DNA from: Magnetococcales bacterium DCbin2
GTDB lineage: Bacteria > Pseudomonadota > Magnetococcia > Magnetococcales > UBA8363
Assembly: GCA_002753615.1 (NCBI GenBank)
Contig: PEAO01000030.1
Span: 1-33,175 of the forward strand
Direction of reading: 5' to 3'
DNA length: 33,175 bases
Part shown: piece by piece, positions 9,601 through 28,806 of the stretch
Layout of the letters: every line of letters begins with the position of its first letter
Position numbering within the stretch: the first letter of the stretch is position 1
Notes under the pieces: model-generated
Told to the model about the DNA's origin: nothing
What the model saw: the letters and a program-made list of their open reading frames with translations, nothing else
The model's database searches: none
Program-made: the position numbers and the translations under genes

Positions 9601-9810
9601 CTCGATACGCATGGTCACCAGGGATTCCACCTCTTCCGGGGCCAAACCAGGGGCCTCGGTCATGATGGTGACGGTGGGACGGTTGAGATCGGGAAAAATA
9701 TCCACCGGCAGACCGATGACTACCCATCCCCCGAGGATCAGGAGCAGGAACGATAACGCGATGACAAATAGGCGTTGGCGCAAAGAAAACTGGATAATCG
9801 CATCAAACAT
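6688..9810 (-). CDS. Heavy-metal efflux RND pump (CusA/CzcA family)
   Basis: A 1040-residue inner-membrane proton-driven pump, full length for the family. It starts MFDAIIQFSLRQRLFV, a typical N-terminus. Visible features are the first helix, the large periplasmic porter domains (PTVTIMTEAPGLAPEEVE..., GVSRLRSNSGVGLS), and helix 4 with the proton-relay signature AIGELVDDAVVDVEN (residues 398-412). The second half is homologous, from FGHPRLLLATTLLLV to the last helices (IPLMIDPDAAGKEILYPVAVVIFGGLISSTLLDTIVTPVIFLL). The helix-4 motif differs from E. coli CusA and from CzcA, and the central cleft has ELDEHAEGVHFSE instead of CusA-type methionines. Substrate therefore cannot be assigned from sequence. 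The ATG at 9810 lies seven bases after the adaptor stop codon. Confidence 0.93.
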   Translation of the reverse strand: MFDAIIQFSLRQRLFVIALSFLLLILGGWVVIGLPVDIFPDLNRPTVTIMTEAPGLAPEEVESLVTMRIESALNGMPGVSRLRSNSGVGLSIVFVEFSWATEIYRNRQLVAEKLATIQETLPRDVVPVMGPVSSLMGEIMLIGLRSEQGKTSPMALRTIADWTLRPQLLGIAGVAQVIPIGGEVKQYQILVDSTRMTALGLSFTALEQALDGFAKNSTGGFLSQQGREYLIRNLGQTTDVEDLEQTVVAVNKGESITLGQVADVRFGAGIKRGDASINGQAAVILAVQKQPGIDTVALTRRIEAALATMQTTLAQDVKIAPILFKQADFIQHAIANVEEALRDGAILVAVVLFIFLMNVRTTFISLTAIPLSLVVAALIFQWFGLSINTMTLGGLAVAIGELVDDAVVDVENVFRRLRENAQSRAPRPSLEVVWRASREVRNSIVYATIIVMLVFLPIFALSGIEGRLFAPLGIAYIVSILASLFVSLTLTPVLCYFLLPGIKVMTHGDSWLVRQLKAGDHHLLGWSFGHPRLLLATTLLLVVVAIVSVPWLGRTFLPTFNEGTVTVSVIMTPGTSLEESNRIGTIAERLLRRTPEVISTGRRTGRAELDEHAEGVHFSEIDVDLKPSGRSRSTILGELRQNLAMIPGVAINVGQPISHRLDHLLSGVRAEIAVKLFGDDLDILRAKGEEIRQQMASIPGVTDLYVEKQVLIPQLQIRLDRGEALKYGLSLNQLTEILQSALNGKVVSQVLDGQRTYDVVLRLAEEWRAETGDFHKILIDTPTGKIPLELVADVVETTGPNVINRDDMQRRIVVLANTQGRDMAAVVQEIQDKVAHSTLPTGYYITFEGQFRSQQEAMYTISLLSLISLTGIFLVLFSHFRSTVLSLIIMANIPMALVGSVAALWLTNTPLSVASMVGLITLAGISARNGILKVSHYLHLVAEEGESFGPDMVIRGSKERLTPVLMTALVAALALIPLMIDPDAAGKEILYPVAVVIFGGLISSTLLDTIVTPVIFLLVGKKAVDRWLELQTLGTGKWES

Positions 9811-9817
9811 GGTTCCA

Positions 9818-11119
9818 TCACCGCATGGCATTGAGTTGGTTATGGCCTTGAACGACCACCTTGTCGCCCGGTTGGATCCCTTCCAAAATTTCTACCCAAT
9901 CCGCCGTTTTTCGACCTATGCGTACAGAACGCCCGGCAAACGCTTCGGGGGCGGTCTTGACCCAGACCCGGGGTATTCCCCCTTGTTCGAGGATGGCTTG
10001 GCGCGGAATCGCTACCGCAAACAATGCGGTACCGGTGTGGGCATAGACATCCATGGGCATTCCCGGTTTGATCAAGGTACCCGACTGATCGATGGCAAAT
10101 TGCATGTGTAATCCTTGATTTTCAGGATTGACCTTGGGACTCACCCCCATCAATGTCAGGGAAAAATTTTTACCAGGAATCTGTCGTGATGCCGCACTTG
10201 CGGCGGTAATACGGTCCGCCATGGACAAATCATAAAGAATGGCTTCGACCCAAAGGTGATCGGGATCGATGATTTCTGCCAGGATATCCGCTTCCGCCGC
10301 GACATCGCCGGGGATGATGTGAACATCGGTCAGTTGCCCATCCATAGGAGCCAAAACCAACTCCCTTCCCGTAAAGGCTTCTCTCTGTTCCCCTTTAAAC
10401 AGGGAAAGACGTTGCCCCGTTTTTTCCACGTTGGACAGGAGAGGATCCAATACCGCCAGGGTTTGTCCACGTTTTACCTTTTGTCCCGATCTTGGGGGGG
10501 GGAAGCTGGGATCGTAGACGATGCGGGAGGTCACTGGGGGATGAATGCGGGCATAAAAGGATGGATCGGGAATGACATGCCCCACAAGGCGGATGGTTTG
10601 CATCACATCTCGTTGTTCGGCGGGGACTGTGCGCACATCCAATAAAAACTGACTCGCCTTGGGCAGGGAGACTCCCCGATGGGCCGTCCCGACATTCCCC
10701 GACGGTTCCTGAATCAGGATAAGATCGGAACTGTCGGCGGTTGTCACCGTCACGGTGAGATCACCCGCCGCATTTGGGGGCAACGTGTTCCCAAGTCGAT
10801 AAATGCCTACAGTCGAGGTGGATTCTCCGGTGCGGGTCCAACCCGGGTTTCCAGTCGCTTCCACTTCGATGGTGGCATTGGCGACAGGGGCGTTGGTTTT
10901 CGCATCGGAAAGATAGATCCACGGCTGTCCGGTATCGTCCTGGATGAGTACCGCCTCATACATGTCTCCCTGGGCACCGTTTCCCAGACCCAATGTTGTG
11001 GGGCCTTGATGTTGCTGGGAAGCGGTCTCACCATGATCTTCACCACCGTGTCCATACGCCCCATCGGTTTGCAGTCCCACGAGTCCGATGGCCAAGAGGA
11101 TGATCCAAGCGAATGGCAT
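9818..11119 (-). CDS. RND periplasmic adaptor with N-terminal beta-domain
   Basis: A 433-residue adaptor that partners the downstream pump. There is a signal peptide at residues 1-22 and a short His-rich segment (GHGGEDHGE). An extra Ig-like or DUF4198-like domain follows (about residues 45-135, VLIQDDTGQPWIYLSDAKTN...VANATIEVEA). The adaptor core comes next: VRTVPAEQRDVMQTIRLVGH, lipoyl half PPRSGQKVKRGQTLAVLDPL, second half LVLAPMDGQLTDVHIIPGDV, and barrel and C-terminal domains ending GIQPGDKVVVQGHNQL. The alpha-hairpin between the lipoyl halves is very short. The ATG at 11119 is preferred over upstream options because AGGAAA precedes it at correct spacing. It is the first gene of the leftward train and is divergent from the two-component regulators. 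Confidence 0.85.
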   Translation of the reverse strand: MPFAWIILLAIGLVGLQTDGAYGHGGEDHGETASQQHQGPTTLGLGNGAQGDMYEAVLIQDDTGQPWIYLSDAKTNAPVANATIEVEATGNPGWTRTGESTSTVGIYRLGNTLPPNAAGDLTVTVTTADSSDLILIQEPSGNVGTAHRGVSLPKASQFLLDVRTVPAEQRDVMQTIRLVGHVIPDPSFYARIHPPVTSRIVYDPSFPPPRSGQKVKRGQTLAVLDPLLSNVEKTGQRLSLFKGEQREAFTGRELVLAPMDGQLTDVHIIPGDVAAEADILAEIIDPDHLWVEAILYDLSMADRITAASAASRQIPGKNFSLTLMGVSPKVNPENQGLHMQFAIDQSGTLIKPGMPMDVYAHTGTALFAVAIPRQAILEQGGIPRVWVKTAPEAFAGRSVRIGRKTADWVEILEGIQPGDKVVVQGHNQLNAMR

Positions 11120-11202
11120 TGCGTTGTTTCCTGTCGTTCGTTCAAGATGACGGTGGATGATCGGTTCCTTGAGAAGCATTGACGGCTACGGTATCTGATC
11201 GA

Positions 11203-11239
11203 TGTCACAAACGAATGGCGCAATTGTCACAAAAGAATG
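11203..11239. promoter_or_regulatory. 22-bp-period direct repeat, candidate response-regulator box
   Basis: TGTCACAAACGAATG (11203-11217) and TGTCACAAAAGAATG (11225-11239) match at 14 of 15 bases and lie exactly 22 bp apart, about two helical turns. OmpR-family regulators usually bind head-to-tail repeats on one DNA face. The site lies between the divergent efflux train (start 11119) and the response-regulator gene (start 11258), just upstream of that gene's GGGAG ribosome site. I infer it is the operator through which this regulator controls both units. No convincing -35/-10 pair was found for either direction. Confidence 0.5.
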
Positions 11240-11257
11240 TCATCCGGGAGAATGTCC

Positions 11258-11974
11258 ATGAACCAACCTCCATGCATTCTGGTGGTGGAAGACAATCGGG
11301 AAATCAGGGATTTGGTCGTCCGTTACCTGGAAGAACACGGCATGACCGCGATGGGCGTTGCCGATGGGCGTGCCATGCGGAAAGCGATGGAAACGAACCC
11401 CGTGGATTTGATTGTCCTGGATGTCATGCTTCCGGGAGAGGATGGCTTGTCCCTATGTCGAAAACTACGGGAAAAATCCAATATTCCCATCATCATGTTG
11501 ACCGCACTCGGAGAATATAGTGACCGGGTGTTGGGATTGGAAATGGGGGCGGACGACTATCTCACCAAACCTTTTGATCCCCGCGAAATGTTGGCGCGCA
11601 TCCGAGCGGTGTTGCGTCGGTGCCGGGGGGATGGTGTCGGATCCCGTTCCAAGAAAAGCTCTCGGATTGGCTTTGCAGGGTGGACTCTGTACCTGGATCG
11701 ACGCGAACTGGTCAGCCCGGAGGGGTTGGTGGAACCGTTGAGTTCCGGCGAATTTGACCTGCTGCTGGCTTTTGTCAGCCATCCGCAGCAGGTACTCAGC
11801 CGCGAACGGTTATTGGATTTGGCCCACGGAAAAGGTGCTGAAAAATTCGACCGTAGTATCGATACCCAAATTATGCGTTTGCGCCGTAAGATTGAAACCG
11901 ATGCCAAAGAACCCAAACTCATCAAAACCGTTTGGGGCGATGGTTATATGTTGGCCGCCGAGGTGAGCGAATGA
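11258..11974 (+). CDS. OmpR/PhoB-family response regulator
   Basis: A 238-residue two-component regulator. The receiver domain (residues 5-120) has acidic residues E11 and D12, phospho-acceptor D55 (in LIVLDVMLPGEDG), T82 and K104, all conserved positions. The C-terminal winged helix binds DNA (SSGEFDLLLAFVSHPQQVLS, then DRSIDTQIMRLRRKIE and TVWGDGYM). The ATG at 11258 has GGGAG eight bases upstream; an earlier in-frame ATG at 11237 overlaps the putative operator and has no ribosome site. Its stop codon overlaps the kinase start (ATGATG), so the two are co-translated. Orientation and spacing suggest it controls the divergent metal-efflux train. Confidence 0.92.
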   Translation: MNQPPCILVVEDNREIRDLVVRYLEEHGMTAMGVADGRAMRKAMETNPVDLIVLDVMLPGEDGLSLCRKLREKSNIPIIMLTALGEYSDRVLGLEMGADDYLTKPFDPREMLARIRAVLRRCRGDGVGSRSKKSSRIGFAGWTLYLDRRELVSPEGLVEPLSSGEFDLLLAFVSHPQQVLSRERLLDLAHGKGAEKFDRSIDTQIMRLRRKIETDAKEPKLIKTVWGDGYMLAAEVSE

Positions 11975-13374
11975 TGAAAATAAGGTTTGCCATCGGTCTT
12001 CGGGGACGGATCATCGCCATTTTGGTCATCGGTCTTACTCTTTCCCATATCTTGAGCATTCTTGTCTTCACCAGCGAAAAGTTGGAACCTGCTCTCCTCA
12101 CGAACGAACAGCAGGTATTGGAGCAAATGGTCACCGCCGTTCGCATGATGCTGGAAATTTCAGACGAATCGCAGCATTCCATTTTATCGGCCATCAATCG
12201 CAACGGTCTGCACTTGAAGATCACCCGTTACTTGCCTGGAGATGGGAAACCGCCACCCCATCAAAACGATGAACCCTTGCGGCGGCGTTTGGAGACGGGG
12301 CTGGGTTCCACCGGGGCGCGTGTCGTTGCCCTCTTCGCCGATCCACCCGACTGGAATCATTACCACGGAAAATTTCACCATTTTTTGTTTGATCTGGAAT
12401 TGGTGATCATCCGGTTCATGCACGATACGGTGATGGAAAAGGAACTGCACGCTTGGATCGACCTCCCCACCGGGGAGCGCGTTCTTCTACAGACCCAATT
12501 GACAGAAAACCATGTCCCTCTGTTTCGACATGCCACGCTATCGGTCATCATCATGACGGGGGCCATTATCCTGTTTGCCATCGCCATAGCCAGGTCCATG
12601 ACCAAACCTCTCCAACGGATCGTCGATGCCGCCAACGCCATCGGGGAGGACGTTTATGCGGTCCAGCTTCCCGAAAAAGGGACTGTGGAAGTTGTTGCCG
12701 TCGCGCGGGCGTTTAACCATATGAATCGAAGAATCCAAGCTTTTGTGGAAGATCGGTTACAGATGGTGGCAGCGATTTCCCACGATCTGCGCACACCGTT
12801 GACCAAGCTGAAACTGATGGCCGAATTTGTGGGCGATGAGACCAGCAGAGTACGGATGGTGGCGACCCTGGACGAGATGGAATCGATGCTCGCTGCCACA
12901 CTCTCTTTCGCACGGGACGCGACAACCTTGGAACCGAAACAACCCGTGAACCTGAGTGGTCTGATTGGGGCCATTTGTGCCGATATGACCGATGCCGGGC
13001 ACACGGTTTTTTTTGAGGAGATGGACCGCGTTGTTTACCCATGCCGCCCCCTGACGATGAAGCGGGCCTTGATCAACTTGATTGAAAATGCGGTCAAATA
13101 CGGCGGTTCGGCGCAGGTTTCTCTCCTTTGCGAAGAACAACGGTTTGTCGTTCTGATTCAGGATCCAGGCCCAGGGATCCCAGAGGATCAGTGGGACAAC
13201 GTGTTCAAACCCTTTTTCCGTCTGGAACCTTCACGCAGCCACGATACGGGCGGGGTTGGTTTAGGGCTGTCCATCGCTGCCTCGGTGATCCGTGATCATG
13301 ATGGTTTCATCCGTTTTGTCCATCTTCAGGAGGGAGGTTTTATGACCAGGGTCGAGTTGCCGGTCGGTCATTAA
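11971..13374 (+). CDS. Sensor histidine kinase, EnvZ/CusS-like
   Basis: A 467-residue inner-membrane kinase. The first membrane helix is about residues 12-33. The periplasmic sensor (34-187) has a His/Tyr cluster NHYHGKFHHFLF near 129-140. The second helix is about 188-207, followed by a HAMP linker. The phospho-accepting His271 is in AAISHDLRTPLTKLKL. The ATPase domain has an N box LINLIENAVKYG (N373), G1 DPGPGIP and G2 GVGLGLSIA. It should phosphorylate the adjacent response regulator. The periplasmic His cluster is a plausible metal-sensing site, which is inference. The ATG at 11971 overlaps the regulator's stop; a second ATG three bases later is equally usable. Confidence 0.92.
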   Translation: MMKIRFAIGLRGRIIAILVIGLTLSHILSILVFTSEKLEPALLTNEQQVLEQMVTAVRMMLEISDESQHSILSAINRNGLHLKITRYLPGDGKPPPHQNDEPLRRRLETGLGSTGARVVALFADPPDWNHYHGKFHHFLFDLELVIIRFMHDTVMEKELHAWIDLPTGERVLLQTQLTENHVPLFRHATLSVIIMTGAIILFAIAIARSMTKPLQRIVDAANAIGEDVYAVQLPEKGTVEVVAVARAFNHMNRRIQAFVEDRLQMVAAISHDLRTPLTKLKLMAEFVGDETSRVRMVATLDEMESMLAATLSFARDATTLEPKQPVNLSGLIGAICADMTDAGHTVFFEEMDRVVYPCRPLTMKRALINLIENAVKYGGSAQVSLLCEEQRFVVLIQDPGPGIPEDQWDNVFKPFFRLEPSRSHDTGGVGLGLSIAASVIRDHDGFIRFVHLQEGGFMTRVELPVGH

Positions 13375-14024: not shown

Positions 14025-17000
14025 TCATTGATTTCCAGTGAACAGATAATCCCCGCCCACCTGATGGCCTGCGGAGAGCATGGCCCCATAGTGTGGTGTC
14101 TGTGGGGCCACCTTGACGACCTCGCTGCGGATCAGATTGAACAAGTCAAAGCCACGTCGTGGTTGGTTGCCATCCCCCAGGTTGGATAACAGTGTGCGGG
14201 CAAAAACCGAATGCCCGTCGCCACCCCCATCCATCACCGGCTCCTCACCGCCCGAAGAGAGCATCATCACCGCCCGCCGTTTGCCGATCTCCTCGACGCT
14301 TAACCCATCGCTATCGGCGGAAAAGGTATATTCCCGCGTCAAAGATCCCGAATAACAGCTATCCGAAATCACCATGATGTGTGCGGCGGAAATTTTGCTG
14401 AGAAAATCGGAAATATCTTTGGTGGAAATCCATTTCTCCGCTGACGAGACATCCACATCCCCAGGGATCCAATAGCCGGTGGCCGTTTCCTCCCGGTAAT
14501 ACCCATGCCCGGCAAAATAAACAACCAATTCCTGACCCGGCTTGATCTGCATGGCCAAGCTTTTGAATGCCCCGATAATGTCGCCATGGCTGGCGTCTTT
14601 GAGGACAATGGATTGATACCCCAGGGATCCCAGCTTGTCACCGACCGCTGTGACATCGTTCACCGCCGTTCCCAAACTGGGGACTGGCTGTGGATAAGCG
14701 TTAATGCCAATCAGCACCGCCACCTTTTGCGAAGTCAGCTCAGGGAAGGGACGTTTCGCCTCCCATTCGACCCCCGGAGGTGGCACCCTCTCAAAGACAT
14801 TTTCTCGGTTTTCTCCCAAGGCATCCAGTTGTCCCAGGGCGGCGGAAAACATCTCGGTGCGCTGGGCCTTCTGGACCATTTGAAATGCCAGCAGATGCGA
14901 CATACGCTCCCTGGAATCAACCCCCATCCCGTTCAATACCTTGATCAAATCCCCCTGGGTCACAGGATCTCCTTCTGTGACACGGGCCAAAACCGCCCCC
15001 ACCTCCCGACTGTTGGGATCATTGGATTCCCGATAGCTTGCCACAATACCCGCACCACCCAGCCCCCCCAAAACCAGTTTTTGTTCCGCGATAGATAATC
15101 CCACGTCGGTCATGGTGGTCACCAAAACCCCGGCATCCACGATCCCTCTATCCGCCGATCCCGTTACCCGTAATAACGCATCGACAGAACCGGAAATTTC
15201 CCTGACCTCTGGGGCTGAAACCCCCTGTTGCCCCCTCTCCATAACCGTGGAAGGTGGCAGAGGTTCTTTCCCAAAATTACCCACCCGAGAATCCGACCGG
15301 ATCAGCGAAATTCCTCCCGGTTCAATCGCCGACGTGGGATCTCCCTGGATGATGACTTCCCTGGTGGCATTGGAAGTGGCCAATGCCCTTTGGGCCATCA
15401 ACCCTTGAATATTTTCGTGATCGGAATCTTGAACGTCCGTTTCCGCTTTTCCTGAAACTGCGGTATCCGTTTGAATCGTGGGTTCGGTTACATGGACCGT
15501 TGTGGTCGTCTCCACTGGGGCGGTTATTTCCGTTGGGACGGTCGTATCCGCCGAAGTCGTCGTTTCCGTCGCAGTTGTTGTTTCCGTCGCAGTTGTTGTT
15601 TCCGTCGCAGTTGTTGTTTCCGTCGCAGTTGTTGTTTCCGTCGCAGTTGTTGTTTCTACCGAAACGACCGTAACGGTGGTGGTTGTCTCGGCAACCACCT
15701 CATCCACCGGCGTGATGATGATCGTTACCGTCGCGCTGTTGGAAGCTCCATACCCATCCCAGGCCACAAATGTCAACGTATCTGTGCCATTGGCGTCGGC
15801 TGTGGGGGTATAGACAAATACCCCGGTTGCTGCGGTTATTGTAGTCGTGCCCAATGTACCATCGGTCATGATCTCATAGGTAAGTGTATCACCATCGTCA
15901 TCGCTGGCACTCAAGGTACCGGTTGCCAGGGAGTCTTCATCGAGGGTTATCAGACCCGCAACGGCCACGGGCAGATCATTGGCGTTGGCAATGGTCAAGG
16001 TAAAATCATCGGAAACACTGGCATTGCCGTCCGATGCCGTTACGTAGATGTATAATACGCCGACATCATCCTGGGTTGGGGTGCCGGAAAACGTGAGGGT
16101 GGCACTGGTATAGGCCAGCCAGGATGGGAGTGCGGATCCATCGACTTGTGTGGCTGTGGTCGTCAACACGTCGGTACTGTCCACATCCGAGAAGGTGGTG
16201 GAGGAAACCTGGAAACTGAACGCGGTATCCTCGGTGGCACTTTGATCGGAGATTGTGGTGGCCACGGTGGGGCTGTCATTGACCGAAGTGACATCCAGGG
16301 TTATCGTCCCCGTTACAGCGGAACTGCTATCTTCGCCACCATCGGCGATGGAAACTGCCAGGGTGGTGTCGGTATCCCCATCGGCTACCGGCACAAACGC
16401 CACCGCCGCCAAGGCTGTATTGACATTGGCCACTGTATCACTGATGCTCCATACCCCCGTGCTGGCGTTGTAACTGCCGCCGCCCGTGGTGGTCAAACTC
16501 CCTGCTGCGATATCGGCCAACGTCAATTGTGCGGTGATCGTTTCACCGGAGTCGCTGTCGGTCACGACAATATCGGTCAGGGCGACGCTGGCGGCATCCT
16601 CGGTATAGGTGGTGGTCACCGCGGTATTGGTTGCGGTGGGACTGGTGTTGGCGGTGGTTTGATATTCATAGGCACCAATGTCAATGGTCCCCACCTGACG
16701 GGTTTGCCCCGCCTGATCGGTGGTCAAACCTCCTGCATAGGCAGCGTCGCCTGTGTTAACCGCCAAGCTGCTGGATGTCAACGCATGGGTTTGGGTAGTG
16801 CCACCATTGTCGGCCAGTGCCGAAACCCCAGGACTGAGCGATGATGCCCCTGTCCCCACCTGATCACCCGTACCGGTGAACCCGGAAGAACCATCTCCGT
16901 CTCCAATCAGGTTATAGCCTCGGGAGGTAAAAGATGTGAGTGCTGCGTTGGAGTTGACATCATCGGTTACGGTGCCGGCACTGCCCAGGAAATTACCGGC

Positions 17001-18509
17001 AATGAGGGTGTGGCTCACACTGACAGATCCTCCCCCCATGTAAATACCACCTCCATAATCGGTAACGCCCGCATTATCAAATTTGGCCATGTTCGCGGTG
17101 ATGGTGCTGTTGTCGATGGTGGCGACACCGCCTGTGGATAGATAACATCCCCCACCGGAGTTTGCGGCGGTATTCCCGGATACGGTGCTGTTGATCATGG
17201 TCAGGGTGCCCAGCGAATAGATACCACCCCCATGGGTTGTGGCGGTATTCCCCGATACGGTGCATCGTGTCAACGTCACATCCGCCGTTGTGACATAAAG
17301 ACCACCCCCAAAGGAGGCACTGCCGGAGGTCATGCTGGTATCTTCGATCACCACCGTACCGCCATTGATATAAACATTACCACCTTTATTGATAGTTCCG
17401 GTACCATCGGTTAATTCCAAGCTTTTCAGGGTGGTATTCAGGGCAATCGAAAAAATGGAAAATGAGCCACTGCCACCGCCGTCAATGATAACATCCGCTA
17501 TGTCGTCACCATCCACATCACCATCGATGGTCATGTCTGCGTTGACGATGCCGCTGATGGCGATACCGGACGTCAGGTAAATGGTCCGAAGATTGGCTGC
17601 CACCGTGTCTGGATCAAAGGCGGTGGCATCAAAAGTGATGGTTTCTCCGGCCCCGATATCTGTTACCGCCTGCCGCAAACTTCCCGCCCCGGAATCATTG
17701 GTGTTAGTGACGACCTGGTTGGCCAACAATCCTGAAAAATCATCGGTGGCTTTGGAAGCCAACGCCCAAGAAGCCTCGATTGGTCCCACACGCTGTTCCA
17801 GATCCCAGTCGCCTCCCAAAGCCGCTTGTCCGGTCGCGTCTACCGAAGCCCCCACATCGGCTTTCGTCACATGGGCCAATTCTCGCAGGAATGCCTCTCC
17901 CTGGGTTCCCGCCGCCACGTCACAACCATAGAGCAGCAAATCCCCCCCAGCCTGCAACGCCTTTCCCCACTGTGCCACGGCGGTTTTATTCCCCGCCAGA
18001 GTGGTCAGATCCAAACTTTCATGGCCTAAAATGACTTTCCCCGGTTCCCCATGGGAGATAATCTGGATGGATTCCAAGTTTTTTTTGTCTGCCAGACATT
18101 GCGTGATGCGGGCAATTCCATCATCCCCCCCCCTGGATGATTCAACCTGCGTATCGGGTGGCACCTCTCGCACCAACGTCGCCAGATCGGGTACGCGGGC
18201 ATCGATGAACACCAGGGTCTTGGGGTGGGCCACCGCACGTTCCCATAAATCCAACAGCGGTTGGAGTTCCGCCATACCAGGGCCGTCTGGCATATTGTGG
18301 GTGGGGTGGGTTCCATCGACCGCAGGCTCCAGAGGATCCATCCCCGATTCCAGCCCCATGATCAACCCCGCCATCACCCCCCCATCGAAGAGAATGCGCG
18401 GTTCCAAGGCTATGGCGCGAAAGGGGAGGGGGTTACCCCACGAAACATCGGTCCCGGGTTTTTCAACCCCCGCATAGCCACCTTGGTGCGTTGTTTGGGA
18501 TGTTTTCAT
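14025..18509 (-). CDS. Giant exoprotein: LEPR motif, DUF4347, beta-helix, cadherin-like, caspase
   Basis: A 1494-residue surface or secreted protein without a classical signal peptide. Leader motif LEPRILFDGG lies at 35-44. DUF4347 (about 97-260) has a His/Cys pair in IISHGEPG (H153) and LYGCDVAAG (C196). A beta-helix with choice-of-anchor-type repeats (SGNTATTHGGGIYSLGTLTM and similar) covers about 265-620. Cadherin/Ig-like repeats (TEDAASVAL, ISDQSATEDTAFSF, DEDSLATGTLSASDDDGD) cover 624-945. A Thr-rich linker spans 945-1010, and a region of unknown fold reaches 1260. A peptidase C14 caspase-like domain (1262-1494) has H1335 in VVYFAGHGYY and C1385 in VISDSCYSG. It probably acts as a cell-surface or secreted protease or adhesin. 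The ATG at 18509 (AGGG upstream) is preferred to 18539. It is divergent from the 18863 gene. Confidence 0.85.
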   Translation of the reverse strand: MKTSQTTHQGGYAGVEKPGTDVSWGNPLPFRAIALEPRILFDGGVMAGLIMGLESGMDPLEPAVDGTHPTHNMPDGPGMAELQPLLDLWERAVAHPKTLVFIDARVPDLATLVREVPPDTQVESSRGGDDGIARITQCLADKKNLESIQIISHGEPGKVILGHESLDLTTLAGNKTAVAQWGKALQAGGDLLLYGCDVAAGTQGEAFLRELAHVTKADVGASVDATGQAALGGDWDLEQRVGPIEASWALASKATDDFSGLLANQVVTNTNDSGAGSLRQAVTDIGAGETITFDATAFDPDTVAANLRTIYLTSGIAISGIVNADMTIDGDVDGDDIADVIIDGGGSGSFSIFSIALNTTLKSLELTDGTGTINKGGNVYINGGTVVIEDTSMTSGSASFGGGLYVTTADVTLTRCTVSGNTATTHGGGIYSLGTLTMINSTVSGNTAANSGGGCYLSTGGVATIDNSTITANMAKFDNAGVTDYGGGIYMGGGSVSVSHTLIAGNFLGSAGTVTDDVNSNAALTSFTSRGYNLIGDGDGSSGFTGTGDQVGTGASSLSPGVSALADNGGTTQTHALTSSSLAVNTGDAAYAGGLTTDQAGQTRQVGTIDIGAYEYQTTANTSPTATNTAVTTTYTEDAASVALTDIVVTDSDSGETITAQLTLADIAAGSLTTTGGGSYNASTGVWSISDTVANVNTALAAVAFVPVADGDTDTTLAVSIADGGEDSSSAVTGTITLDVTSVNDSPTVATTISDQSATEDTAFSFQVSSTTFSDVDSTDVLTTTATQVDGSALPSWLAYTSATLTFSGTPTQDDVGVLYIYVTASDGNASVSDDFTLTIANANDLPVAVAGLITLDEDSLATGTLSASDDDGDTLTYEIMTDGTLGTTTITAATGVFVYTPTADANGTDTLTFVAWDGYGASNSATVTIIITPVDEVVAETTTTVTVVSVETTTATETTTATETTTATETTTATETTTATETTTSADTTVPTEITAPVETTTTVHVTEPTIQTDTAVSGKAETDVQDSDHENIQGLMAQRALATSNATREVIIQGDPTSAIEPGGISLIRSDSRVGNFGKEPLPPSTVMERGQQGVSAPEVREISGSVDALLRVTGSADRGIVDAGVLVTTMTDVGLSIAEQKLVLGGLGGAGIVASYRESNDPNSREVGAVLARVTEGDPVTQGDLIKVLNGMGVDSRERMSHLLAFQMVQKAQRTEMFSAALGQLDALGENRENVFERVPPPGVEWEAKRPFPELTSQKVAVLIGINAYPQPVPSLGTAVNDVTAVGDKLGSLGYQSIVLKDASHGDIIGAFKSLAMQIKPGQELVVYFAGHGYYREETATGYWIPGDVDVSSAEKWISTKDISDFLSKISAAHIMVISDSCYSGSLTREYTFSADSDGLSVEEIGKRRAVMMLSSGGEEPVMDGGGDGHSVFARTLLSNLGDGNQPRRGFDLFNLIRSEVVKVAPQTPHYGAMLSAGHQVGGDYLFTGNQ
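15553..15660. repeat. 18-bp tandem repeat encoding Thr-rich linker
   Basis: GCAGTTGTTGTTTCCGTC is repeated in register from 15571 to 15642 (four exact copies). A fifth copy (15643-15660) diverges in its last four bases, and one degenerate copy lies before them (15553-15570). On the minus strand it encodes the hexapeptide ATETTT inside the exoprotein, between cadherin-like repeats and the C-terminal part. The near-identity of copies suggests recent slippage expansion. Confidence 0.9.
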
Positions 18510-18576
18510 GGCATCGCCCTGGGTTTTCAAATGCAACATGGTTCGGCAAAATCTTGTTTTCTATCGATCATAGTAC

Positions 18577-22183: not shown

Positions 22184-22766
22184 ATCCAAAGGGCAAAAAT
22201 CGCATCCCTTCCGCAACAAGCTGCTGCTCAACCAGTGGCTGGTGAGCCTGTTCGGGATCAATCCGCTCATCGAACACAAAATCAATGGCAAAATGCCCTT
22301 TCACAAATTGGCCGAACCTATCCGTGATTCGCGCCTGGAAGGGTTGGACAAAGATAATCTGCATTTTTTCTACCACCATCTTGGTAATAGCCCGCTGGAA
22401 CAGGTTATTCAGGGAATTCAGCGGATCAAGAAGGATCTGGAACAGAAAAAGGATGATCTGCTGAAGGTTGGCGATCTGAATGCTTGTAATTTCGGCAAGC
22501 ACCTGTTCCAGCCGCACGGCCTTTTGCACGAAGGCCCCGCCTGCGAGAAGGTTTTGTTCCACAAACGGATCAAGGATGTCGAGCAACGGTTGCAAGACCC
22601 AACCGTGATCCTCAACAGTTTCATCCTTTCCTGGACACAGTACCCGCAACTGAAATGGGATAAGACACAGGACGAACTTGAGGATATGCACGTACTGTTC
22701 ATGACCGATGGCGGGGAAAGATACGTCAATAAGCTGTTTGCCAAGTTAAAGGGGCTGGCTCATTGA
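22170..22766 (+). CDS. Unknown protein, possibly helicase N-terminal fragment
   Basis: A 198-residue cytosolic protein beginning inside the DUF1016 gene (14-base overlap), so probably co-translated. The opening (FRNKLLLNQWLVSLFGI, PFHKLAEPIRDSRLEGLDKDN, FYHHLG) resembles, from memory, the N-terminal region of some restriction-type DEAD/DEAH helicases found with such nucleases, but no helicase motifs follow. A coiled-coil-like Lys/Asp stretch (RIKKDLEQKKDDL) and a C-terminal MTDGGERYVNKLFAKLKG end it. It may be a complete small accessory protein or a truncated helicase. Its stop overlaps the start of the next adaptor gene. Confidence 0.5.
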   Translation: MAKPKSKGQKSHPFRNKLLLNQWLVSLFGINPLIEHKINGKMPFHKLAEPIRDSRLEGLDKDNLHFFYHHLGNSPLEQVIQGIQRIKKDLEQKKDDLLKVGDLNACNFGKHLFQPHGLLHEGPACEKVLFHKRIKDVEQRLQDPTVILNSFILSWTQYPQLKWDKTQDELEDMHVLFMTDGGERYVNKLFAKLKGLAH

Positions 22767-23518
22767 TTCGCATTGATTTTAGCCCATCTATTCTTCTTTG
22801 TATTTTGGGATGGCTGGGATCGGCCTCGGCTTGGGCGGAGGAGCCGATTCAGGCGCGGGTGCTGTTGGTGGCAAAACGCCATACGATCCTCTCCAGCCGC
22901 TTGGCCGGACCCATCGAACGGATGACGGTCAACGATGGTGATCGGTTTGATAAAGGGGGGGAACTGGTCACCATGAACTGTGTCATCCAACAGGCGGAGT
23001 TGGAAAAAGTGCAGGCGGAACACGATGCGGCCCGCCATACCCTGGAGGCGCGAAAAGGTTTGCAAAACCTAGCCTCCGGCAGTGCCTTGGAGACCCGCTT
23101 GGCCGCCGCTGAAGTGGCGCGTACCGGTGCAGAGGTGCGACGCAATCAGGCGACCGTCGGCATGTGTCGCCTGTCGGCCCCTTTTTCGGGTCGGGTGGTG
23201 CTGCGCCATGCCCAACCCTTCCAAAGTGTTACCCCAGGGCAGCCGTTGTTGGAAATCCTCGATGATTCTGATCTGTCCGCCACGCTGATCGTCCCTTCAC
23301 GCTGGTTGCGCTGGTTGCGGATGCAAACCCCATTTACCATGAACCTGGATGAAACCGGAAAAACCTACCAGGGGCATGTGGTCTCAATCGGTGCCCGGAT
23401 TGATCCAGCGAGCCAATCGGTTGCCGTTACGGGGGAAATCCATGGCGACCATCCCGAACTGTTGGCCGGGATGAGTGGTGCTGCCCGTTTTGATCCTCCT
23501 GCCGATTTAAAACCGTGA
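22763..23518 (+). CDS. HlyD-like periplasmic adaptor of the export cluster
   Basis: A 251-residue membrane-fusion-type protein. A signal segment (about residues 7-25, GSASAWA) is followed by the first lipoyl half (LSSRLAGPIERMTVNDGDRFDKGGELV), an alpha-hairpin of about 60 residues (QQAELEKVQAEHDAARHTLEAR...), the second half (LSAPFSGRVVLRHAQPFQSV) and a beta-barrel (SATLIVPSRWL...VVSIGARIDPASQSVAV). It ends at ARFDPP with no membrane-proximal extension, so it is short for the family. The start is TTG at 22763, overlapping the previous stop; no in-frame ATG exists before the signal. Its end overlaps the next gene by GTGA. No RND or ABC pump is adjacent. Confidence 0.78.
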   Translation: MIRIDFSPSILLCILGWLGSASAWAEEPIQARVLLVAKRHTILSSRLAGPIERMTVNDGDRFDKGGELVTMNCVIQQAELEKVQAEHDAARHTLEARKGLQNLASGSALETRLAAAEVARTGAEVRRNQATVGMCRLSAPFSGRVVLRHAQPFQSVTPGQPLLEILDDSDLSATLIVPSRWLRWLRMQTPFTMNLDETGKTYQGHVVSIGARIDPASQSVAVTGEIHGDHPELLAGMSGAARFDPPADLKP

Positions 23519-24879
23519 ACGAGACTGCTCACCAACGAATGTTGGCCGGCGCGGGGGCACTCCTCCTGTTGGAGGAGGAGACCCGTCGTTCCCAAACCCA
23601 TGAGGAACTGGTGTTTTTGATGACCAACCGCACCGCCTCAGCATTGGCGGCGGATACCCTCTTCTTCTTCCCCGTCGAACTGGAGAAATCGGGAAAACTG
23701 GGAAAATTACGTGCGGTTTCCGGCGTATCCGCACCCGAATCCCATGCCCCTATGGTGGTCTGGTTGAACGGTCTGATACACCGCCAGCCATTACCATCGC
23801 AACCGGAAATTGTGACCGGACGGTGGGTGGATGCGGATGGCGACTCGTGGCAACGGTGGATGCCACCGGAGGGGATGTTGTTGCCTTTGACGACCCCGTG
23901 TGGAGGCGTTGTGGGGGTGCTGCTCCTGGTGCGGCGTCATCCATGGCATCAGGAGGAGTTGGAATTGGCCCGGCGTTTGGGGTTGTGTTATGGCCATGCC
24001 TGGGAATACCTCCGACTGAAAACGACTCCGGGACGGGGAAGTGGTGGCAAATGGGGTATGATGGTATCGCCTCGGTCTCTTTTGTGGGTGGGTGGGGTCT
24101 TGGTGGTGCTGCTGTTGGCTTGGCCGGTACGCCAGTCGGTCATGGCACCCGCCAAGGTGATCGCCGAAAAACCACGTTTGGTCACGGCGACCATGGATGG
24201 GGTGGTGGCGCGTATTGCGGTGGAACCCAACAGCCTGGTCCATGCGGGGCAGATACTCTTGACCATGGAGGAGACCATGGTGGCCAATCGGCTGGCGGTG
24301 GCGGAGGATGCTTTGCGGGTGGCGGAGACGGAACTCCTCAGGGCGGAACAGTTGGCGTTTTCCCATGCCGATGTCAAAGCCAATCTGCCGATGTTGCGCA
24401 GTCGCATCCAGGAACGGACCGTGGAACGACACTATGCCCAGGAGATGTTGGAACGGAGTCGGGTGTTAGCACCGGGGGATGGGCTGGCATTGTTCGGTTC
24501 GGCGGAGGAATGGGTCGGGCAACCGGTCCGGGTGGGACAAAGAATCATGGTGGTCGCCGATCCCGACAAGGTGGCCATTGCCATGGATCTCTCCATCCAC
24601 GATGCGGTGACCATGAAAACGGGGGGGGCGTTTTTGTTGTTTTTGGATTCCGATCCGTTGCATCCGCGAGCGGGTCAGGTGGTCCATGCCAGTTATGAAG
24701 CCAATGTCACCCCGGAAGGGGTGGTGGCGTTTGCCGTGCGTGGACACTTGACCGATGGCAGGCCGCCACCTCGGATCGGGCTTCGGGGGAGGGTGCGCCT
24801 CTTTGGAGAGGATACTGCGTTGTTTTATCTCCTGTTCCGGCGTCCGCTCTCGGCGTTGCGGCAGTTTGTCGGGATGTAG
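23515..24879 (+). CDS. GAF-like domain fused to HlyD-like adaptor
   Basis: A 454-residue inner-membrane protein. Residues 1-170 look like a cytoplasmic GAF-type sensory domain (TRRSQTHEELVFLMTNRTA, then LLPLTTPCGGVVGVLLLVR and ARRLGLCYGHAWEYLRL). One membrane helix is near 180-202. The periplasmic adaptor part has lipoyl half VVARIAVEPNSLVHAGQILL, an alpha-hairpin (ANRLAVAEDALRVAETELLRAEQL...) and a barrel (RVLAPGDGLALFGSAEEWVGQPV..., VAIAMDLSIHDAV). The GTG start at 23515 overlaps the preceding stop. It is followed after five bases by the site-2-protease fusion. A cytoplasmic sensor joined to an adaptor suggests regulated assembly or activity of an export complex; that is inference. Confidence 0.75.
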   Translation: MNETAHQRMLAGAGALLLLEEETRRSQTHEELVFLMTNRTASALAADTLFFFPVELEKSGKLGKLRAVSGVSAPESHAPMVVWLNGLIHRQPLPSQPEIVTGRWVDADGDSWQRWMPPEGMLLPLTTPCGGVVGVLLLVRRHPWHQEELELARRLGLCYGHAWEYLRLKTTPGRGSGGKWGMMVSPRSLLWVGGVLVVLLLAWPVRQSVMAPAKVIAEKPRLVTATMDGVVARIAVEPNSLVHAGQILLTMEETMVANRLAVAEDALRVAETELLRAEQLAFSHADVKANLPMLRSRIQERTVERHYAQEMLERSRVLAPGDGLALFGSAEEWVGQPVRVGQRIMVVADPDKVAIAMDLSIHDAVTMKTGGAFLLFLDSDPLHPRAGQVVHASYEANVTPEGVVAFAVRGHLTDGRPPPRIGLRGRVRLFGEDTALFYLLFRRPLSALRQFVGM

Positions 24880-24884
24880 GCACT

Positions 24885-25811
24885 ATGGAGACGGCATCCG
24901 GGCGGGGGGGGAGAGATCACCCTGAATCGTCGCTCCCTGGGGGGCTGACTCCTGCTCTTCCGTATTTATTGCGCCGAGAATTGCGGTTTCACCCTGGCCC
25001 ACCCCATCCCGATGGTTCCCCCTCCTGGATGATTCATGATCCGGTTCGGCAACGATTTTTCCGCATGGGTTGGGTGGAACGGATCATCATGGAGCATCCC
25101 GGTCTGACACCGGAAACGCTGGGGATGCAGGTCAGGGCATTGGGCGGTCCCGCCATCTCACCGGAACAGGTGATCAGGGTCCGTGATTTCTTGGTGCAAA
25201 ATGAATTGGTTGTGGCAACCTCTCCGACGATGACGCAAACATTGTTGCAACAACGACAGCGGCAAACCCAGGGGTGGCTGCGGCGGTTGTGGCATGGATG
25301 GTTGTTTTTTCGCGTCCCTTTGGTCAATCCCGATCCTTTTCTCGTCCGATGGGGAGGGTTATGGCGTCTGTTAGGACACCCTATGGTTTGGGTGGCGGTG
25401 GTGGTGATGGGGTTGGTGGGGGCGACGAATACCGCACGGCACTGGGATATGTTTGTGGCCACCTTTCCCCATTTTTTTTCGTTCGCGGGGTGGATTTGGT
25501 ATGGGGGGGCCATTTTGGGGGCCAAACTGGTCCATGAGTTGGGACATGCTGCGACGGCGAGCCGTTACGGATGTCGGGTTCCCACCATGGGTGTGGCGTT
25601 CATGTTGTTTTGGCCGGTATTTTATACCGATGTCGGGGAAGCATGGTTGCTGCGCTCCAAAAAAGAGCGGTTTTTGATTGGTGCGGGGGGGGTGTTGGCC
25701 GAATTGGGGCTGGCGGCGGGGCATTGTTTTTGTGGCCATTTGTTTCCGAGGGGCCTGCCCGCAGTGCCCTGGTTCTCCTGGCGGGGGTGGTCTGGGTGGG
25801 GACGGTGGTGA
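24885..25811 (+). CDS. Site-2-protease/HlyD fusion, N-terminal protease part (frameshifted)
   Basis: First part of a gene that should run 24885-27055 (about 723 residues). Residues 30-115 resemble a PqqD-like winged-helix module (WMIHDPVRQRFFRMGWVERI). Membrane helices follow, then the M50 zinc motif HELGH (217-221, in KLVHELGHAATASRYGC) and VPTMGVAFMLFWPVFYTDVGEAW, a site-2-protease hallmark. Frame and family agree through GVLAELGLAAG. From 25722 this frame gives non-homologous HCFCGHLFPRG..., while the true continuation ALFLWPFV is in the -1 frame, so one base (a G in the run at 25718-25721) appears missing. ATG 24885 lies five bases after the previous stop. Confidence 0.8.
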   Translation: METASGRGGRDHPESSLPGGLTPALPYLLRRELRFHPGPPHPDGSPSWMIHDPVRQRFFRMGWVERIIMEHPGLTPETLGMQVRALGGPAISPEQVIRVRDFLVQNELVVATSPTMTQTLLQQRQRQTQGWLRRLWHGWLFFRVPLVNPDPFLVRWGGLWRLLGHPMVWVAVVVMGLVGATNTARHWDMFVATFPHFFSFAGWIWYGGAILGAKLVHELGHAATASRYGCRVPTMGVAFMLFWPVFYTDVGEAWLLRSKKERFLIGAGGVLAELGLAAGHCFCGHLFPRGLPAVPWFSWRGWSGWGRW

Positions 25812-27055
25812 TCAACTTGAACCCATTCATGCGATTTGATGGTTATTTTTTGCTCTCCGATGCCCTGGGGGTTCCCAATTTGCAACAGCAGGCTTTTGCC
25901 TTGGGACGGTGGCGGATGCGGGAGTGGTTATTTGGATGGGGTCTCCCGGAACCCCATGGGGGGCGGGATGGTTTGGGTCGGTTTTTGACATTCTTCGCCT
26001 ATGCCGTTTGGATTTATCGCGCCATCTTTTTTACCGGCTTTGCACTGGTGGTTTATTTTATGGTGTTCAAGGTGGCGGGGTTGGTGCTGTTGCTGGCGGA
26101 AGTGGGATGGTTTGTTGTCCGTCCGGTGGTTTTGGAAATGGGCGTTTGGTGGCAAAATCGGCATCGGTTTCACGGAAATGGGGCGGTGGTGCGGACGATT
26201 CTGCTGGTGGTGGGGGTGGTTTTGCTGGTGGCGGTGGTTCCGTGGGAAGGGGCGGTACGGGTACCGGCCATGGGAAAAGCGGGGTGGTATCAGGAGATGT
26301 TTTCTCCGGTGGGGGCGCGTGTGCGGCAGGTCTGGGTGACATGGGACCAGGCGGTGGAAAAAGATCAAGAACTCATGGTGCTGGATGCTCCCGATCTGGC
26401 GTTATCTTTGGAGCAAAATCGTTTAACAATAGAACGGTTGCAATGGGATATGGGGCATGGGGCCAGTGAGTTCACCGTGGGGGATAAACACCTGGTCGTT
26501 GCCCGCGAGTTGGCCTCTGCCTTGGGTGAACGGGATGGTTTGCTTAAGGAAGCGGCTTTATTACGGGTTCGCGCCCCGTTTGCGGGGGTGGTGAAATTCA
26601 TTGCCGAGGGGATGGAGCCGGGGGTTTGGGTGGATTCCAAACAACCGTTGGTGGCGATCATGCGCCTTCAGCCGGTACGGGTGGAGGCTTTTGTCACGGA
26701 AGAGGAGATTGACCGGGTGTTGGGAACCTCCCAAGCGACCTTCATTCCCGCTGAACTGGGACGTCCGTCGCGTGAACTGAAGGTGGACCGGATTGAGAAC
26801 CAAGCGGTTGAATTTATAAAAGATCCTGCTTTTGCTTCGACGTATGGCGGCCCTTTGGCGGTGCGGCAGGATCGGAATGGTCGGTTGGTCCCTGAAAAAG
26901 GGTGTTTTCGGGTATGGCTTTCTCCGGTGCTTGCCTGGTCTGACCTGGATCGGGTTTCACCGGGGACTGTCCGTTTTGCGGTCGCTCCACGGACTGTTTT
27001 GGAGCGGTTCTGGCACCCCATCTGGGCCGCATTGATCCGTCAAACCGATTTTTGA
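25712..27055 (+). CDS. Site-2-protease/HlyD fusion, C-terminal part (frameshifted)
   Basis: Continues the protease gene in the -1 frame; the open frame extends back to an ATG at 25571, but homologous sequence begins near ALFLWPFV. It holds the second M50 motif LNPFMRFDGYFLLSD, whose Asp is the third zinc ligand, and more helices (TFFAYAVWIYRAIFFTGFAL, GLVLLLAEVGWFVVRPVVL, TILLVVGVVLLVAVVPW). A periplasmic HlyD-like half follows: GARVRQVWVTWDQAVEKDQELMVL, a short hairpin, RVRAPFAGVVKFIAEGMEPG and a barrel domain. A protease joined to an adaptor suggests cleavage coupled to export. Its last 50 bases (27019-27068, running past the stop) are duplicated at 27780-27829. Confidence 0.78.
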   Translation, partial: GGGALFLWPFVSEGPARSALVLLAGVVWVGTVVINLNPFMRFDGYFLLSDALGVPNLQQQAFALGRWRMREWLFGWGLPEPHGGRDGLGRFLTFFAYAVWIYRAIFFTGFALVVYFMVFKVAGLVLLLAEVGWFVVRPVVLEMGVWWQNRHRFHGNGAVVRTILLVVGVVLLVAVVPWEGAVRVPAMGKAGWYQEMFSPVGARVRQVWVTWDQAVEKDQELMVLDAPDLALSLEQNRLTIERLQWDMGHGASEFTVGDKHLVVARELASALGERDGLLKEAALLRVRAPFAGVVKFIAEGMEPGVWVDSKQPLVAIMRLQPVRVEAFVTEEEIDRVLGTSQATFIPAELGRPSRELKVDRIENQAVEFIKDPAFASTYGGPLAVRQDRNGRLVPEKGCFRVWLSPVLAWSDLDRVSPGTVRFAVAPRTVLERFWHPIWAALIRQTDF

Positions 27056-27071: not shown

Positions 27072-27608
27072 TCAAAGCAGCTTTACCAGTGCGGCAACGG
27101 CACCGACCGCAACGAACATCAGGCTTCCGAGTTTGATCACCATGCGTTGCTCCAGTTCTTTGATATCCCGCTTCAACTCCGACCGGATCGACTCGATTTT
27201 GAAGTCGAGTTCCTTGAACCGGACTTCAACCTTGGTATCGAGTTCCTTGAACCGGACTTCAACCTTGGTGTCGAGTTCCTTGATGTCCCGTTTCAACTCC
27301 GCTCGGACCGACTCGATCCTGGCATCGAGTTCTGCCCGGATCGACTCGATCTTGACATCGAGTTCTGCCCGGACCGACTCGATCTTGACATCGAGTTCTG
27401 CTCGGACCGACTCGATCTTGACGTCGAGTTCCTTGATATCCCTCCGCAGAGTGGCTTCAACCTCGGCCAGATCCCTTTTGGTCGTCAACCGGTCTTCGAC
27501 CAAGTTGACCAACGCTTCGGCTTGGATGGCCGCCTGTCGTTCATCGACTCCGGCCTCTTTCAGTTTTTTGACGTAGGCGTAGGTGTCAAATGCAATCGCC
27601 TGACTCAT
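27072..27608 (-). CDS. DUF1640-like coiled-coil membrane protein
   Basis: A 178-residue protein. The N-terminus (MSQAIAFDTYAYVKKLKEAGVDERQAAIQAEALV) matches the DUF1640/CCDC90 family pattern, followed by TKRDLAEVEATLRRDIKELD. The centre is a long coiled coil built from 11-residue units (four consecutive units based on ELDVKIESVRA) and two FKELDTKVEVR units. One C-terminal membrane helix (about 158-176, LGSLMFVAVGAVAALVKLL) anchors it, with the coiled coil outside that helix. Bacterial members have no firmly established function and are often found in mobile or toxin-like contexts. The ATG at 27608 has GGGG seven bases upstream. The gene sits inside a duplicated 50-bp bracket. Confidence 0.8.
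   Translation of the reverse strand: MSQAIAFDTYAYVKKLKEAGVDERQAAIQAEALVNLVEDRLTTKRDLAEVEATLRRDIKELDVKIESVRAELDVKIESVRAELDVKIESIRAELDARIESVRAELKRDIKELDTKVEVRFKELDTKVEVRFKELDFKIESIRSELKRDIKELEQRMVIKLGSLMFVAVGAVAALVKLL
27211..27432. repeat. 33-bp tandem repeats encoding 11-residue coiled-coil units
   Basis: Two near-identical 33-bp units at 27211-27243 and 27244-27276, and four more of a second type at 27301-27333, 27334-27366, 27367-27399 and 27400-27432. All stay in frame in the DUF1640-like gene. Copies of the second type differ by a few bases, showing recent duplication of hendecad coiled-coil units. Confidence 0.9.
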
Positions 27609-27876: not shown

Positions 27877-28806
27877 TTAAATAATAATATCCCCATATTC
27901 CGACAAATTTTGAGATTTTATAATTGTTTTAGAACTTAAAATGATATCACGGAGTGTTTCATAGCCGAGATTTAATGGGAAATCATCTTTATCGAATACG
28001 TGTGTCGCCAGCAGAAGAAACATTTTTTGATATTTGGCAGGCCAACCTAGAAAGACACGGATTGGGTCTTTACTTGCTCCTTTTTTTCTATGCCGGTTGA
28101 CTTTTCCCTGGTGGAATACCTGATCCAGATATGCCTCCGTACAAGGCAGGCGGTCTTGAGTCAGGTAAAGGAAGAGGTCACGGAAGCGGTCCCGTTCCTG
28201 GGTGTAGTCGTCCATATGGAAAATTTGTCGATCATCCAGAATGGACAAGCTCTGGTCAGTTGATAAAGTTCCAAGAACGACCCAAAGAAAGCACAGTTCT
28301 TCCAGATGTCCCATCAATTGGTCGAGGGTTTCGTATTTTTCTATCAGATGGCAATCTTCAAAAGTGTAAACCAACCGTTCATGTAATTGTCTACATTGCA
28401 GATAGAAAGTGGCCAGATTCAGAAATTCTACGGCTCTGGCCGCCCGTAAAGCATCAATATGGTGGCGAAACAGAGAATCGATACGCAGTAAAGGATCTCT
28501 GGCCAAGGCGACAAAACGGCCACCCAAACATTGCGTGGGTTCCTGCATACAATGTTCGTGAAAACCATGAACTCCACCGAAAAAATGGTCTTCCCGACTC
28601 ATCTCGGCCATTTTATGGGCAAATTCTTTGGGTGATAACTCAACAGTTTTGTTCACTTCCTGGTCGGGGGGGTCTCCCAGGGCGGATACCGGGGGCCAGC
28701 GGCGGGAACCGTGAAAGCAGGTGACGTTTGGGTGTATATTCAAGGCATTGGCAAGCCAGTTGGTTGCCGAACCGCCCCAGGAGGAAGCGTAAAAGATATT
28801 TGCCAT
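27877..28806 (-). CDS. Sulfotransferase-like protein
   Basis: A 309-residue cytosolic protein. The opening IFYASSWGGSATNWLANALN followed by HPNVTCFHGSR resembles the 5'-phosphosulfate-binding loop of PAPS-dependent sulfotransferases (SxGGSGTxWL), and LARDPLLRIDSLFRHH resembles the 3'-phosphate-binding strand and helix (RDPxxRxxS). Such enzymes transfer sulfate to glycans or other acceptors; the acceptor here is unknown. The C-terminal half (DRFRDLFLYL..., PIRVFLGWPAKYQKMFLLLATHVF) is not distinctive. The ATG at 28806 has no good ribosome site, and the gene stands alone between the repeat junction and topB. It could modify surface polysaccharide, but nothing nearby proves it. Confidence 0.65.
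   Translation of the reverse strand: MANIFYASSWGGSATNWLANALNIHPNVTCFHGSRRWPPVSALGDPPDQEVNKTVELSPKEFAHKMAEMSREDHFFGGVHGFHEHCMQEPTQCLGGRFVALARDPLLRIDSLFRHHIDALRAARAVEFLNLATFYLQCRQLHERLVYTFEDCHLIEKYETLDQLMGHLEELCFLWVVLGTLSTDQSLSILDDRQIFHMDDYTQERDRFRDLFLYLTQDRLPCTEAYLDQVFHQGKVNRHRKKGASKDPIRVFLGWPAKYQKMFLLLATHVFDKDDFPLNLGYETLRDIILSSKTIIKSQNLSEYGDIII

Follow-up and report, generated by a model that had tools for sequence, protein, structure and literature searches.

We describe a candidate export and processing system encoded in a 33,175-nucleotide stretch of DNA from Magnetococcales bacterium DCbin2 (contig PEAO01000030.1; the whole stretch is referred to as the window). Three consecutive genes of the window encode HlyD-type proteins: a periplasmic adaptor, a fusion of a GAF domain to an adaptor (GAF/HlyD), and a fusion of an M50 metalloprotease to an adaptor (M50/HlyD). 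Genomes of the same phylum link this operon almost one to one with a short LEPR tag near the N-terminus of large proteins, and this link is strongly shown. We lean toward the reading that the trio is part of a dedicated system that exports and processes large surface or extracellular proteins under the guidance of their tag. Very long LEPR-tagged surface proteins are widespread in the sampled genomes; the link names a candidate machine for them and offers a recognition module and a protease that can both be tested. If the reading is true, 3 processes would be united in one export route: leader recognition as in ribosomally synthesized and post-translationally modified peptides (RiPPs), intramembrane proteolysis, and SecA-type transport. 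Such a route would account for the large adhesin-like proteins of Pseudomonas, Azospirillum, Nitrospira, magnetococci, and marine bacteria.

The link was measured in 397 genomes of the phylum, 31 from the window's order and 366 from elsewhere. Outside the order, 52 of the 366 genomes encode a full-length M50/HlyD protein (best E < 1e-130); 4 genomes with weaker M50-like proteins (G367, G133, G294, and G248) were scored as negative. The tag is defined, on very long proteins, by the NCBIfam model NF012209 (LEPR-8K, LEPR-XLL domain), which names the motif only. This model matches 21 of the 366 genomes, all 21 of them M50/HlyD-positive, and none of the 314 negative genomes (table 21/0/31/314; Fisher 2.6e-20); the product of the within-family probabilities, from family lists transcribed by hand, is 6e-14. 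In family f18 (39 genomes), the 5 with the tag are the 5 with M50/HlyD; in f30 (13 genomes), the two likewise coincide in 3. Since NF012209 gives its best scores to one form of the tag (LLSA), we built our own profile, A7, from the LEPRxxFD form. A7, which contains rows from at least 2 of the 52 tested genomes (G160 and G262), matches 39 of the 52 positive genomes and 0 of 79 negative ones. By one search or the other, 51 of the 52 carry a LEPR-type tag. The initial annotation had made co-occurrence beyond chance the point on which a connection between the trio and LEPR-tagged proteins should stand or fall; the connection stands.

The consensus of the tag over 76 unique sequences is LEPR[LIM][LM]FD[GA]A, at residue 4 to 89 (median 35). 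Among proteins that lack DUF4347, the pattern turns up in 1 of 1614 with 251-900 residues and in 13 of 143 that are longer; of 1838 shuffled N-termini, 0 contain it. By eye, tagged N-termini have no obvious Sec signal; hydrophobicity separated them poorly from Sec-type N-termini. A third form of the tag, [LM]EPR[FY][LM]LSG, is found on DUF4347 proteins of the window's own genome and of G018, G029, and G262. LEPR-8K-tagged open frames reach 19,427 (G005:C115), 15,434 (G029:C1), and 14,920 residues (G018:C1), which to our knowledge places them among the largest bacterial proteins.

The DUF4347 domain was considered as the signal in place of the tag and rejected. It tracks M50/HlyD (40 of the 59 DUF4347-positive genomes outside the order are M50/HlyD-positive, Fisher 3e-28), but it is also present in 19 M50/HlyD-negative genomes, all among the 79 in which A7 finds no match. 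Of the 69 DUF4347 proteins at M50/HlyD-positive loci whose N-terminus is available, 68 are tagged (64 of 65 unique), and the other bears a MEPRFLLSG variant. In negative genomes, 0 of the 20 DUF4347 proteins read are tagged, or 0 of 19 without the one (first in L274) that comes from a frame-broken gene; 4 of the 20 have an apparent Sec signal at their start, as judged by eye. These 20 are some of the copies in 17 of the 19 genomes, leaving out G112 and G309 (weak matches), whereas the A7 search covered all 19 whole genomes.

The operon occurs in Proteobacteria, Nitrospirota, and other Gram-negative bacteria, often in the order TolC, HlyD, GAF/HlyD, M50/HlyD, and frequently with the gene of a large LEPR-tagged protein adjacent. 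M50/HlyD matches were found in 39 of 41 genomes searched, the window's own included. In a scan of species genomes, the best 80 of at least 565 loci include Pseudomonas, Pectobacterium, Azospirillum, Duganella, Variovorax, Methylomonas, Nitrospira, Pelagibacteraceae, and Desulfobulbaceae. The same-strand run upstream of 198 M50 genes reads TolC-HlyD-GAF-M50 in 53 cases, HlyD-GAF-M50 in 39, GAF-M50 in 49, M50 alone in 45, and otherwise in 12. These are counts of loci or proteins, not of independent events: some loci are one contig fetched twice (for example, L067/L191, L070/L222, and L066/L227) or come from near-identical strains, and 25 of the 220 fetched stretches lack an M50 label owing to the simple gene caller or short contigs, 5 of these not being centered on M50. 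A TolC-family gene lies within the fetched stretch at 111 of 202 M50 loci. The initial annotation had asked whether a TolC-like gene accompanies the trio; one does lie nearby at many loci, and in the window the sole labeled TolC-family gene accompanies a resistance-nodulation-division (RND) pump. The gene of that pump (6688-9831) comes with a separate adaptor and is found on the opposite strand, about 13 kb from the trio; in the window, no RND pump is encoded with the trio's adaptors. A protein of exporter size with the motif pattern of an ATP-binding cassette (ABC) was seen at just 3 of 203 M50 loci (window excluded).

The window's own genome comprises 3.36 Mb in 201 contigs and is 78% complete, the window being one contig. 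It contains 7 M50 places, 5 DUF4347 places, and 2 other matches to NF012209; SecA-type genes occur at 3 places, one of them of canonical length. Contig C200 holds a complete set in order: a TolC-like gene, HlyD, GAF/HlyD, M50/HlyD, 3 genes of tail-collar type (the type rests on the one of the three that was tested), and a LEPR/DUF4347 protein. At two further loci, C163 and C39, a shorter SecA-like gene directly follows M50.

The operons fall into 2 types, distinguished by their tags and by a SecA-like gene. Type A, that of the window, lacks a SecA gene and is associated with LEPRxxFD[GA] tags: 68 proteins with this tag are encoded at M50 loci whose stretch contains no SecA and 0 at loci whose stretch does. 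Type B includes a SecA-like gene; of 6 proteins tagged with the LLSA form, 5 are encoded in a stretch with this gene, and for the sixth (L278) it lies in the next stretch of the same contig. In 29 of 29 pairs, the SecA-like gene is a same-strand neighbor of M50, and in 27 the two overlap. SecA-linked M50 proteins form one clade of 30 tips (support 0.987), of which 26 have SecA in the stretch, as does none outside the clade. The SecA-like proteins are about 670 residues long, comprise DEAD, preprotein cross-linking, and P-loop domains with conserved ATPase motifs, and align with SecA models over roughly the first 600 model positions. A search at E 1e-230 finds them in at least 24 of the 397 genomes, a lower bound because of that cut-off; 7 of these lie outside the order, and 7 of 7 are tag-positive. 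In the stretches around M50 loci, a SecA-like gene is not part of operons of the window's type. Clustering of neighboring open reading frames of at least 90 residues detected no extra family generally conserved at M50 loci of this type, and an additional inner-membrane engine was rejected on these grounds: the clusters yielded only acetyltransferase, tail-collar, and sulfotransferase-like genes, mainly in Pseudomonas and none of them general.

The M50/HlyD protein appears to join 3 modules: an N-terminal RiPP recognition element (RRE)-like domain, an intramembrane protease, and an adaptor. The H, E, and H of HExxH and the N, P, D, and Y of NLNPxxxFDGY are conserved in 100% of 116 proteins. The N-terminal domain has a predicted three-strand, three-helix topology in the model of L222, and Pfam PqqD is matched best in L042 (4.5e-7; 30.5 bits against a cut-off of 23.4). 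Its NCBIfam matches are PqqD (1.1e-6), lasso PqqD, ApyI, ScmD, HvfC, and AlbA, and its top sequence matches in the PDB are TfuB1 (0.02) and PqqD 3g2b (0.11). PqqD is missing from the structure list of the full-length model, which means nothing because that list is filled by adaptors. Sequence and model together support an RRE-like domain in the family, and alignment to homologues suggests one in the window's own fragment as well. PqqD/RRE domains are the leader-binding modules of RiPP systems. The initial annotation had proposed that the LEPR leader is recognized by the M50 protein; the RRE-like domain gives that proposal a concrete module, and tag recognition is moderately supported.

These likenesses raise the alternative that the trio is a RiPP-like cassette for peptide maturation and export, akin to daptide and epipeptide M50 systems, with the LEPR protein a frequent but separate neighbor. 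The family nearest to M50 is indeed daptide_HExxH (1.9e-44 for L043, whose 152 bits stay under the cut-off of 300), and the shared features extend to a PqqD/RRE-like domain, an M50 intramembrane metalloprotease, and a leader-like tag. We nevertheless regard such a cassette as very improbable: beyond mere proximity, the tag itself tracks the operon across families and whole genomes, and the neighbor clustering gave no generally conserved further family of at least 90 residues. RiPP and M50 peptide systems act on short peptides; here an HlyD adaptor is fused to the protease and the substrates would have from about 1,000 to many thousand residues. As a precedent for tag-guided export, the M50 protein EpeP is considered to export its peptide as well as to cleave it, and an RRE is required for proteolysis of lasso leaders (PMC10885120).

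In the mechanism that we propose for tag-guided export, the LEPR tag would act as a leader. The RRE (PqqD-like) domain, presumably cytosolic, at the start of M50/HlyD would capture it, and the M50 protease, with its invariant catalytic residues, would cut it off within the membrane. Domain identity and gene order suggest that the periplasmic adaptor arms of the 3 proteins and a TolC-family channel would form the conduit outward. In type B, the SecA-like ATPase, whose gene overlaps or abuts that of M50, would drive the substrate and is the likeliest motor. More speculatively, the energy in type A might come from housekeeping SecA/SecYEG or another source, and the GAF domain would probably gate or sense. 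Computation shows the order of the genes, their domains, the association of tag with operon, and the SecA-like partner in type B; cleavage and export, like the motor of the window's type, are inferences.

The scheme can be compared with known systems. Type I secretion (HlyB-HlyD-TolC) likewise has HlyD-family adaptors, often a TolC-family channel, and large repeat-rich exoproteins without a Sec signal recognizable by eye. It differs in that no ABC exporter is conserved at the trio loci, in that there are 3 adaptors here, one fused to GAF and one to the RRE-like and M50 domains, and, as far as the N-terminus is compared, in that substrates here carry an N-terminal LEPR tag. With its DEAD, preprotein cross-linking, and P-loop domains, the ATPase of type B is akin to SecA and accessory SecA2; it differs in its length of about 670 residues, in being encoded with M50/HlyD, adaptors, and often TolC, and in not being seen in the window's type. 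The initial annotation knew of no described system of this form; in mainly open-access literature, preprints excluded, we found no paper that joins M50, HlyD, SecA, and LEPR in one system or gives the exit route of LEPR-tagged proteins. One paper (PMC10868602) mentions a giant LEPR-XLL protein of Vibrio, with no exporter named in the passage concerned. A bolder version would make this a separate Gram-negative export class, in which the RRE reads the N-terminal LEPR tag, the adaptor-fused intramembrane M50 protease serves as the inner-membrane port in place of an ABC exporter, and a SecA-like ATPase drives the substrate through adaptors and TolC, a dedicated one in one operon type and the housekeeping one in the other. 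We place it slightly below an even chance; if it is true, this route would carry some of the largest bacterial proteins, with tagged frames reaching 19,427 residues.

The chief alternative is a complex for processing or anchoring that is not a translocon: the tagged protein would cross by Sec or another route, RRE-M50/HlyD would bind and cut the tag in or at the membrane to release, anchor, or sort the protein, and the adaptor arms would serve as a periplasmic scaffold. Site-2 proteases are best known as cutters, not transporters; operons of the window's type encode neither an ATPase nor a pump; and 45 of 198 M50 genes lack labeled neighbors. The other side of the balance holds the adaptors, which in 2 of the 3 trio proteins align with MacA over their length and, together with TolC at 111 of 202 loci, point to a conduit; the SecA-like gene overlapping M50 in the sister type, which points to translocation; and the tagged N-termini, in which no Sec signal is obvious by eye, with the reservation on hydrophobicity given above. 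We judge this rival unlikely, though it is to be taken seriously.

Several further observations weigh against tag-guided export. Genome G177 has M50/HlyD and no tag by either search. Among DUF4347 proteins encoded far from M50 in M50/HlyD-positive genomes, 7 of 10 are tagged, the untagged ones being two in G116 and one in G177. The TolC gene is contiguous with the operon in only 59 of 198 cases, and 45 of the 198 M50 genes stand without labeled neighbors. A tagged gene lies in the fetched stretch for just 30 of the order's 126 M50 loci and for 39 of the 70 named ones; part of the shortfall comes from the ends of stretches and contigs and from genes missed by the simple gene caller. At the sequence level the RRE match is weak, with PqqD reached in 3 of 42 full-length proteins at E <=1 and in 10 of 35 N-terminal domains at E <=10, and the NCBIfam RRE matches shown for the first member are all under their cut-offs. 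For the window's type, no motor was found at the M50 loci. Finally, the window's own copy of M50/HlyD is frameshifted.

This last point bears on the trio itself. The initial annotation had described 3 HlyD-type genes, and the adaptor, GAF/HlyD, and M50/HlyD are real, but the third is split by a one-base frameshift, which that annotation had not noted, any more than the RRE-like domain or the SecA-like ATPase of type B. The gene spans 24885-27055 (+), with HELGH and NLNPFMRFDGY in separate frames; the first fragment matches Peptidase_M50 (1.7e-4) and daptide_HExxH (2.3e-24), both under the cut-offs. Comparison with an intact relative, L048 (94.3% identical DNA), reveals one single-base gap at about 25719, between the HExxH and NLNPxxxFDGY motifs. 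Downstream of the gap, 60 of 89 differences from L048 fall at third codon positions; constraint on the gene therefore held until recently, and the break is either recent or an assembly error. The window copy could accordingly be a decaying pseudogene or carry a one-base error, and be uninformative on function here. The position of the shift between the 2 motifs and the fragmented source assembly (201 contigs, 78% complete) speak for this, while the third-position bias, a sign of recent constraint, and the open copies in G004 and elsewhere in the same genome speak against it. The family-level result is untouched by this alternative. We hold it to be doubtful, somewhat less so than the processing complex. 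If the frameshift is real, the other intact copies of the genome would serve the tagged proteins.

Features of the window discussed in the text
Feature	Coordinates	Strand	Basis and remarks
HlyD-type periplasmic adaptor, 251 aa	22763-23518	+	HlyD_3 3e-18, HlyD_D23 2.2e-16, RND_mfp 6.7e-29; TTG start as listed
GAF/HlyD fusion, 454 aa	23515-24879	+	GAF at residues ~1-176, hydrophobic helix 186-201, adaptor domain
M50/HlyD, fragment 1	24885-25811	+	putative RRE-like domain ~24960-25220; membrane part; HELGH 25533-25547
M50/HlyD, fragment 2 (different frame)	25571-27055	+	NLNPFMRFDGY 25814-25846; adaptor domain HlyD_3 8.9e-9
LEPR-tagged exoprotein, 1504 aa (candidate substrate)	14025-18539	-	DUF4347 5e-53, He_PIG 4.6e-15, Big_9 7.6e-15, Peptidase_C14 2e-15
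LEPR tag LEPRILFDG, residues 45-53	18381-18407	-	translation; 76-tag consensus
DUF4347 domain	17724-18215	-	profile match; His163 in 98%, Cys206 in 100% of 81 rows
Caspase (C14) domain at end of LEPR protein	14088-14726	-	Peptidase_C14
Small uncharacterized protein, 244 aa	18863-19597	+	divergent from LEPR gene; family match 9.7e-59
RND efflux cluster	3802-13374		ACR_tran 4.7e-264, CzcB-like adaptor, TolC-like gene
Coiled-coil repeat protein	27072-27608	-	CCDC90-like 5.4e-10; directly after trio
309-aa protein	27877-28806	-	no Pfam/NCBIfam match; sulfotransferase-like by eye

The candidate substrate in the window combines the LEPR tag, DUF4347, Ig-like repeats, and a C-terminal caspase-like domain. 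Its DUF4347 (PF14252) scores 179.7 bits against a cut-off of 24.6; the protein has no match to NF012209 at E 0.01 and misses that model's curated cut-off. With its conserved His and invariant Cys, DUF4347 may be a self-processing protease; we take this pair to resemble the dyad of clan CD cysteine peptidases. Against solved structures, the only plausible match is 9qpe_G (E 3e-5), itself labeled a DUF4347 protein in the PDB, the rest being repeats of designed proteins and weak matches. Given the caspase-like C-terminus besides DUF4347, the LEPR protein may hold 2 different cysteine-peptidase-like domains. The family of the divergently encoded 244-residue protein recurs at 8 M50 loci of the order, the window counted, and it is therefore a possible companion.

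In the GAF/HlyD protein, the single hydrophobic helix of the model looks by eye membrane-spanning. Beside the RND cluster lies a gene for an EnvZ-like sensor kinase (3.9e-60, under the cut-off). A protein with the same start as the coiled-coil protein adjoins the trio in G004 (L048:4042-4578).

Other neighbors recur across the sample. Operons of the order, mostly of type B (L042, L156, L166, and others), adjoin genes resembling two-partner secretion; a ShlB-like cluster is present at 10 loci, along with large exoproteins, by labels read from the sequence with no family search. Phage tail-collar type genes lie between the M50 and LEPR genes at L041:14141-15924 and at Pseudomonas loci; L041:14705-15292 matches Collar at 7.6e-28, and the tail-collar cluster is found at 17 loci, mostly in Pseudomonas. 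Genes that look sulfotransferase-like by eye, as the 309-residue protein of the window does, also stand between M50 and LEPR genes in Pseudomonas.

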